Shown: in pieces, positions 905-1,824 of the stretch
How positions within the stretch are numbered: position 1 is the first letter of the stretch
How the letters are laid out: every line of letters begins with the position of its first letter
Source: Polynucleobacter meluiroseus
GTDB lineage: Bacteria > Pseudomonadota > Gammaproteobacteria > Burkholderiales > Burkholderiaceae
Assembly: GCA_945864455.1 (NCBI GenBank)
Contig: CAMBBT010000002.1
Span: 1 to 40,806 of the forward strand
Direction of reading: 5' to 3'
DNA length: 40,806 bases
Notes under the pieces: generated by a model
What the model was told of the DNA's origin: nothing
Seen by the model: only the letters and a program-made list of their open reading frames with translations
The model's database searches: none
Position numbers and translations under genes: made by a program

Positions 905-972
905 AAAAAACACCCGAAGGTGGTTTTGGTATTCCTGGTGGCACGGTCCGGAATCGACCAGGGCTGAGGATG
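905..972 (-). repeat. Degenerate tRNA 3'-half plus terminator repeat between two single-gene units
   Basis: 20-bp exact match CACCCGAAGGTGGTTTTGGT at 911-930 and 1723-1742, extending into GGTGGC..GG..CGGAATCGA.CCA similarity to the T-arm/acceptor/CCA end of tRNA-Phe at 1749-1824. Lacks the tRNA 5' half. Confidence 0.75.
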
Positions 973-983
973 TTTGACTCTAG

Positions 984-1664
984 CTATTCTTCAAAGGTGC
1001 AACTTACTTCTAGCTGATTTGGCTGCGAAATTTCATGGGAGTATTTCAAAAAATTTTCTCGATGTCTTCTGTAGAACAATAACCCCTCTTTGATACTAGC
1101 TACTGAGGCGCCTTGCTCAAGCATCTTATCCCATAGGTTCCAATCCTCTTGAGGATGAACGCCATCTTTATACCTCTTCTTGTAACCAATTTTTTGTCCA
1201 AGGGCTGTACGATACATCATTGACCCATGGTGCTGTTCTTGGCGATCCCAATACAGGTCGCCGTGATATGGCACGGTCTCGCCAGGTACTCGATCTAAGA
1301 TTTCTTCTTTCAATTCACCTGTAACAACAATATCGTAAGTAACAATATCAGTGCTCGTATTTGATAACAGCTCAATTGCATCTGAACGCAACCAGTTATC
1401 GGCGCCGATGAATAGTACATATTCTGTACTGATCCGAGATAGTATGTCTTGAAAGTTATCTACGATCCCCAAATTTTTAGGCCTCAATACATATTCAATA
1501 TCAGGATATAGACTTGGCAAATGACCGCACTCTAACCCACCATCATCAACAAATAAAATCCTTGTGGGAGGAATAGTTTGGGCGAGCAGTGACTCAATGC
1601 AATGAGCTGCAAGATGTCCGTATCTATAGGAGGCAATAACGACAGTAATCATATTGAGTGGCAT
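984..1664 (-). CDS. Family 2 (GT-A) glycosyltransferase
   Basis: 226-aa ORF with N-terminal MITVVIASYRYGHLAAHCIESLLAQTIPPTRILFVDDGG and EYVLFIGADNWL, typical GT2. Confidence 0.85.
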   Translation of the reverse strand: MPLNMITVVIASYRYGHLAAHCIESLLAQTIPPTRILFVDDGGLECGHLPSLYPDIEYVLRPKNLGIVDNFQDILSRISTEYVLFIGADNWLRSDAIELLSNTSTDIVTYDIVVTGELKEEILDRVPGETVPYHGDLYWDRQEQHHGSMMYRTALGQKIGYKKRYKDGVHPQEDWNLWDKMLEQGASVASIKEGLLFYRRHRENFLKYSHEISQPNQLEVSCTFEE

Positions 1665-1710
1665 TAGAGCACGAAACTATGACATTGGCCTCCATAAAAT
1701 CTTGGTCATG

Positions 1711-1739
1711 CCAAAAGAAAACCACCCGAAGGTGGTTTT
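1711..1739 (-). terminator. Rho-independent terminator of tRNA-Phe
   Basis: Minus strand AAAACCACC-TTCG-GGTGGTTTT followed by CTTTTGG: 9-bp stem, UUCG tetraloop, U-rich tail. Confidence 0.8.
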
Positions 1740-1748
1740 GGTGTTTCT

Positions 1749-1824
1749 TGGTGGCCCGGGGCGGAATCGAACCACCGACACAAGGATTTTCAATCCTCTG
1801 CTCTACCGACTGAGCTACCAGGCC
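1749..1824 (-). tRNA. tRNA-Phe(GAA)
   Basis: Minus strand GGCCTGGTAGCTCAGTCGGTAGAGCAGAGGATTGAAAATCCTTGTGTCGGTGGTTCGATTCCGCCCCGGGCCACCA: complete cloverleaf, anticodon GAA, encoded CCA. Confidence 0.96.

Follow-up and report, generated by a model that had tools for sequence, protein, structure and literature searches.

Genomic islands that grow by addition at a tRNA gene and contain tRNA repeats have been described in several bacterial groups. They include islands at tRNA-Lys in 'Ca. Methylopumilus' (PMC10872708), at several tRNAs, including tRNA-Phe, in 'Ca. Actinomarinales' (PMC7771536), and islands in Alteromonas (PMC4119200). According to the portion of PMC10872708 used here, the Methylopumilus islands range from 330 bp to 42 kb and hold 1–63 coding sequences, and the tycheposons of Prochlorococcus are summarized there as elements of 4–200 kb with a tyrosine recombinase. 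The arrays of Polynucleobacter considered in this work display the features by which additive islands are recognized, namely, a tRNA target and partial tRNA repeats that bound variable cassettes. No earlier description of this Polynucleobacter locus was found; the coverage of the Polynucleobacter literature was incomplete, and priority is not claimed.

The window, i.e., the whole analyzed stretch of 40,806 nucleotides, opens contig 2 in a Polynucleobacter meluiroseus assembly (1.49 Mb, 147 contigs, 81% complete), and the locus can be read only from position 1 inward. With a probability of roughly 80%, the sequence comparisons point to the tRNA-proximal end of a tRNA-Phe-anchored cassette array that would have arisen by site-specific recombination at the T-loop, with a putative recombinase acting in trans. 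In total, the window holds the tRNA-Phe gene and three copies of one composite site, with two cassettes in between (Table 1). The earlier note, made from the letters of the window, had placed a terminator behind a tRNA-Phe gene, which ARAGORN and Rfam bear out, and the 20-bp identity that it reported between the two terminators (911–930 = 1723–1742) is exact. Its single-gene assignments, a glycosyltransferase and an LpxL-like protein, are supported by Pfam matches; against NF006487, the LpxL-like gene scores 268 bits, slightly below the cut-off of 281. The second copy of the tRNA 3' region that it described is a real site, but it is not an exact copy. Compared with the tRNA-Phe 3' end, one T is missing and several positions are substituted (TGGTCGATTCCGGACCGTGCCACC vs. 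TGGTTCGATTCCGCCCCGGGCCACC), and the 5' part of the site (TAGAGTCAAACATCCTCAGCCC) is a non-tRNA half-site common to unrelated cassettes across the genus. While the tRNA-end repeat was thus recognized, the third site at 36–1 had been overlooked. Because this site is present, the LpxL-like gene is a bounded cassette too.

Table 1. Features of the tRNA-proximal array end in the window.
Feature	Positions	Strand	Basis
tRNA-Phe (GAA), intact; platform where arrays start	1749–1824	minus	ARAGORN; Rfam RF00005, 68.1 bits
Site 1, right half-site inside tRNA-Phe (T-loop TCGATT to CCA + AAGAA)	1745–1772	minus	site model, 31.9 bits, E = 1.8e-9
Cassette 1 terminator, ACCACCTTCGGGTGGT + T-run, directly 3' of the tRNA	1713–1742	minus	sequence, pattern match
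Cassette 1, T-loop to T-loop, ~813 bp, one gene	958–1770	minus	site positions
Family-2 glycosyltransferase gene, 226 aa, cargo of cassette 1	984–1664	minus	PF00535, E = 1e-12
Site 2 (class A), already degenerate	932–982	minus	site model, 39.0 bits, E = 1e-11; blastn, E = 4e-12
Site 2, left half, TAGAGTCAAACATCCTCAGCCCTGG	958–982	minus	
Site 2, right half, TCGATTCCGGACCGTGCCACCAGGAA	932–957	minus	
Cassette 2 terminator, CACCTTCGGGTG + T-run	899–931	minus	sequence, pattern match, repeat identity
Cassette 2, T-loop to T-loop, ~946 bp, one gene	12–957	minus	site positions
LpxL/HtrB-like lysophospholipid acyltransferase gene, 283 aa, cargo of cassette 2	29–880	minus	PF03279, E = 1.8e-29
Site 3 (class A), cut by the contig end, TAGAGTAAGGCGTCCTCAGTTCAGGTCGATTCTGCC	1–36	minus	17.5 bits, E = 6e-5; repeat D2

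The blastn query that recovered site 2 was the tRNA 3' end together with its terminator. The site model was trained on the sites of these genomes, with site 2 of the window included and site 3 excluded. The terminator pattern is expected by chance 0.00 times in the window, and the site-model survey found the same terminator class as in cassette 1 in most cassettes.

In the comparison set, each species was represented by a single genome, and neither an excised circle nor a pair of strains with an empty and an occupied site was seen in it. For 20 complete genomes, the stretch running from tRNA-Phe past xerC was extracted and combined with further regions; 38 regions were searched altogether with an iterated profile, and sites of 20 bits or more were counted. 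A tRNA-Phe query gave additional partial matches in most of the 121 genomes of the genus. The search for further tRNA-3' repeats yielded 252 sites on the tRNA strand of the 38 Polynucleobacter regions and none on the opposite strand. Arrays at tRNA-Phe are present in most of the Polynucleobacter genomes examined, and at a low threshold, the number of copies per genome ranges from 1 (the tRNA only, in G032 and G105) to 21. Relatives support the idea of the earlier note that one-gene cassettes accrue one behind another at the 3' end of a tRNA: they have up to 18–21 same-orientation sites per genome and mostly single-gene units. Wherever the fetched region covers the head of an array with its tRNA, the tRNA gene is intact. 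At their far end, the arrays give way to core genes, and a HAD-type dehalogenase gene adjoins in ten of the mapped genomes. The class A site (defined below) was found in none of 260 genomes of other genera of the family and had no match on plasmids, phages, or viral contigs. Its exact matches in named genome records came from Polynucleobacter or from uncultured betaproteobacterium/Burkholderiaceae MAGs.

Short arrays of the same cassettes also occur away from tRNA-Phe (L062–L065, L068, L071–L073, and L075). Several of these ectopic arrays are headed by a tRNA-Phe fragment that begins near the anticodon arm, and in G013 (L075) the array is preceded by a gene that, judged by eye, resembles an IS30-type transposase.

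The repeated sites fall into two classes, with 184 sites in class A and 32 in class B. A class A site consists of a conserved 24-nt non-tRNA half-site, the tRNA end from the T-loop to CCA, and AAGAA, and a terminator usually comes next. The potential stem of the site does not covary. The motif profile of the left half (AGAGTCAGGCATCCTCGGCCCTGG) was computed from 85 class A sites that are preceded by unrelated DNA; the information content is ~0 up to position −23 and then rises to ~1 bit within the 24 nt. Among seven genomes searched, this 24-nt motif was found only in arrays, either main or ectopic, and it is absent from the two array-less genomes. Another tRNA as the source of the left half-site was considered and rejected, as no such source was found in seven genomes. 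The earlier note had proposed the tRNA 3' end plus terminator as the exchange site; this has to be replaced by a composite of ~50 bp that joins the 24-nt non-tRNA half to the stretch from the T-loop to CCA, and the terminators are variable cargo. Class B sites share ~45 bp with the tRNA from the anticodon loop on (TTGAAAATCCTTGTGTCGGTGG|TTCGATTCC...), a pattern typical of classical tRNA integration. The elements that they terminate are larger, with a median of 4.9 kb, and some carry a recombinase of 410–430 aa.

A class A cassette extends from the T-loop base of its site (TCGATTCCGCCCCGGGCCACCAAGAA) through a terminator (in most) and usually one gene to the left half-site, which abuts the next T-loop. 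The median length is 1,095 bp. Exactly one open reading frame of at least 90 aa was present in 104 of the 184 cassettes, and 88 of these 104 run in the tRNA direction; the frames were called with a simple script, and gene counts are approximate. Some class A intervals hold many genes, and one gene is the mode, not the rule. A terminator-like hairpin with a T-run stands directly behind CCA in 117 of 146 cassettes with distinct bodies, and it is represented by several unrelated sequences. The cargo includes a lipid A-type acyltransferase, a glycosyltransferase, an Sbt-type bicarbonate transporter, a patatin, a cupredoxin, a repeat lipoprotein, the BrnT toxin, and a Phd/YefM antitoxin. The arrays of the 20 complete genomes also contain 103 copies (0.33 per kb) of the palindrome GTC[CG]TTTAAA[CG]GAC, which is absent from the downstream core DNA; many copies lie at a fixed distance of ~113, 159, or 181 nt behind a site.

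The content of the arrays is shuffled between genomes. The 184 class A cassettes belong to 130 DNA families, and 27 families are found at two or more places. When homologous cassettes are compared between two genomes, their neighbors differ in 131 of 133 comparisons and their array index in 82 of 95 pairs. A cassette of 3.08 kb, first in the array of G016 and fifth in that of G090, is 97.0% identical over 3,079 bp from T-loop to T-loop, whereas the core gatAB genes of these genomes are 77.6% identical. In a second case of transfer, the values are 94.2% for the cassette and 81.4% for the core. At the left junctions of transferred cassettes, identity starts within the T-loop. At an identity of at least 83%, the LpxL-like gene of the window occurs in ~19 of 121 genomes, where it is distinct from a resident paralog at ~40%, and in five mapped arrays it occupies positions 1, 2, 8, 10, and 10. 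It had been argued that a tandem accretion would be contradicted if all close relatives carried the same two genes in the same place, and this is not what is observed. Of the 121 genomes, 43 have homologs of the glycosyltransferase, which lie near tRNA-Phe in some genomes and elsewhere in others. The farther a site lies from the tRNA, the lower it tends to score (pooled Spearman −0.33, p = 7e-6), in keeping with addition next to the tRNA and decay of older sites; single arrays show the trend weakly, and some, e.g., G050, show the reverse. Sequence comparison shows class A units to have a constant orientation and an order that changes between species, and it shows their transfer from species to species as exact units bounded by T-loops; the suggested likeness to integron cassettes holds for both the shuffled gene content and the horizontal movement of exact units between relatives.

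In the 20 complete genomes, no gene matching PF00589 or PF00239 lies in a class A interval, and the two in-array PF00589 matches are both inside integrase-bearing elements. An integron integrase (TIGR02249) exceeds the cut-off in none of 21 genomes, including those whose arrays have up to 21 copies; the matches below the cut-off are XerC, XerD, and others. A tyrosine recombinase, which the earlier note advised looking for further downstream, does exist, conserved 16–69 kb away in the 20 complete genomes, but it is XerC in core synteny and does not adjoin the array, so a dedicated array-end integrase was rejected. A serine recombinase was also rejected (present in six genomes, never within an array). 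The observation that no integrase is visible stands for class A cassettes, but some relatives do have an integrase at the locus that belongs to another site class. Because the cassettes contain no integrase, they are probably swapped between species by an enzyme encoded elsewhere.

A recombinase of 410–430 aa (P0001) has homologs in 66 of 121 genomes, several of them within ~300 bp of tRNA-Phe, and it is usually accompanied by a second recombinase of 188 aa. For P0001, Pfam gives no match at 0.01 and PDB no relative at the sequence level, and there is a weak similarity to NCBIfam XerA; its homolog in G078 (42% identity) coincides with a PF00589 match. The idea that P0001 moves class A cassettes found no support, since every end seen in its elements is a class B site. 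The recombinase-bearing elements with a visible far end (G079, G020, G049, G026, G013, G072, and G110) are likewise all of class B. In G079, G020, and G049, the recombinase lies beside tRNA-Phe (within ~200 bp) together with a direct repeat of the tRNA 3' part, unlike in the window cassettes, and integrase-bearing elements lie inside the arrays of G110, G014, G026, and G072. Possible enzymes for class A are the 188-aa or 410–430-aa recombinases of class B, XerC/D, or a transient enzyme from outside the sample.

Class B elements carry the 410–430-aa and ~188-aa recombinases as a conserved module (L082, L084–L087, L090, and others), and the smaller protein resembles the catalytic part of XerC/D and FimB-type invertases. 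In five genomes, the gene for the larger protein lies 5' of tRNA-Phe and points away from it (L091 in G018, L092 in G027, L093 in G089, L094 in G034, and L100 in G090), ~300 bp upstream of the tRNA 5' end in four and 1.2 kb in G090. It looks as if elements also inserted on the 5' side of tRNA-Phe. A viral contig (L102:1–13065) carries a terminal repeat of 51 bp that matches the tRNA-Phe sequence of class B exactly. Its genes, judged by eye, are inovirus-like (zot-like, secretin-like, and integrase), which suggests a filamentous phage that uses tRNA-Phe.

The array can be explained by the following course of events. Crossing-over within TCGATTCC would be carried out by a recombinase supplied in trans, probably a tyrosine recombinase, and a circular cassette composed of a left half and a right half would insert at the tRNA T-loop. 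The tRNA would keep its own 5' part, the newcomer would supply the functional 3' end and the terminator, and the previous occupant would be pushed downstream, behind the newcomer's left half-site. Insertion would thus take place at the tRNA-proximal end, and older sites, which are no longer needed, could decay. In this scheme, the tRNA gene would act as attI and the composite site as attC. Whether the whole amounts to an integron-independent form of gene capture, with integrase-less and mostly single-gene cassettes, a dedicated composite site, a putative T-loop-specific recombinase in trans, and one tRNA platform throughout the genus, is in our estimate evenly balanced.

The cassettes might also be exchanged by homologous recombination alone, e.g., after natural transformation, between repeated tRNA 3' ends and terminators, with no site-specific recombinase at present. 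Direct repeats of 25–60 bp would likewise keep the units within their boundaries and in one direction, XerC and XerD alone are conserved throughout the 20 complete genomes, and some array-bearing genomes, such as G036, have no other PF00589 gene. We nevertheless consider this unlikely. It leaves unexplained why 85 unrelated segments end in the same 24-nt non-tRNA half-site and how new units appear at the tRNA and regenerate it, and the arms of identity are short.

Less probable still is that the intervals are what decay has left of ordinary integrase-bearing tRNA islands that piled up in tandem and whose integrases were deleted. Elements with an integrase are indeed found inserted at this tRNA-Phe (G079, G020, and G049) and inside arrays, but they end in class B sites, whose tRNA identity starts from the anticodon loop. 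Class A differs in its left half, its compact single-gene bodies, the lack of integrase remnants, and its movement as exact units. This movement is also not predicted if the repeat is an RNA device, i.e., a tRNA-like 3' end plus terminator on mRNA ends that was spread by duplication. GGCCC...GGGCC could form a minihelix, and terminators follow directly, but the stem does not covary (582 paired cells observed vs. 582.1 in shuffles), and 118 of 168 deviating cells are broken, which makes this reading hardly credible.

Polynucleobacter are small-genome freshwater bacteria that share accessory genes between species, and the array offers a concrete route for this. The route is testable, since it involves exact gene-sized units, one tRNA, and a defined site. 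Should site-specific capture at the T-loop be confirmed, it would do the work of an integron without needing a resident integrase, the order of an array could be read as an acquisition record, and the search for similar arrays could be extended to further tRNAs of other streamlined bacteria.

The best explanation of the locus is an array akin to the known additive tRNA islands, which works like an integron but is not one. As in the additive islands, a tRNA is the target for variable cassettes with partial tRNA repeats at their ends (PMC10872708, PMC7771536, PMC4119200), and both the content among strains and species and the island length vary. In contrast to these islands, as far as they are described in the parts of the papers used, the arrays have a conserved non-tRNA half-site, mostly single-gene units, terminators for each cassette, and two site classes. 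Tycheposons are similar in being tRNA-anchored elements with cargo genes in streamlined aquatic bacteria, going by their summary in PMC10872708; class A differs from that summary in its median of 1.1 kb and its lack of a recombinase, and class B elements come nearer. Classical tRNA islands and prophages, represented here by class B and by the inovirus-like L102, use the same tRNA-Phe with a direct repeat of its 3' part and an adjoining tyrosine-type recombinase. They differ from class A in the ~45-bp repeat from the anticodon loop, in their larger size, and in that some carry a recombinase. With integrons, the arrays share tandem, mostly single-gene cassettes of the same orientation, a conserved composite recombination site, shuffling between genomes, and toxin-antitoxin genes among the cargo. 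Unlike in integrons, the platform is a tRNA gene, no IntI is found above the cut-off in the 21 genomes, and the site looks derived from a tRNA and unlike attC, going by its make-up of a non-tRNA half plus the tRNA stretch from T-loop to CCA and by its potential stem, which does not covary. Moreover, each Polynucleobacter cassette tends to carry a terminator ahead of its gene.
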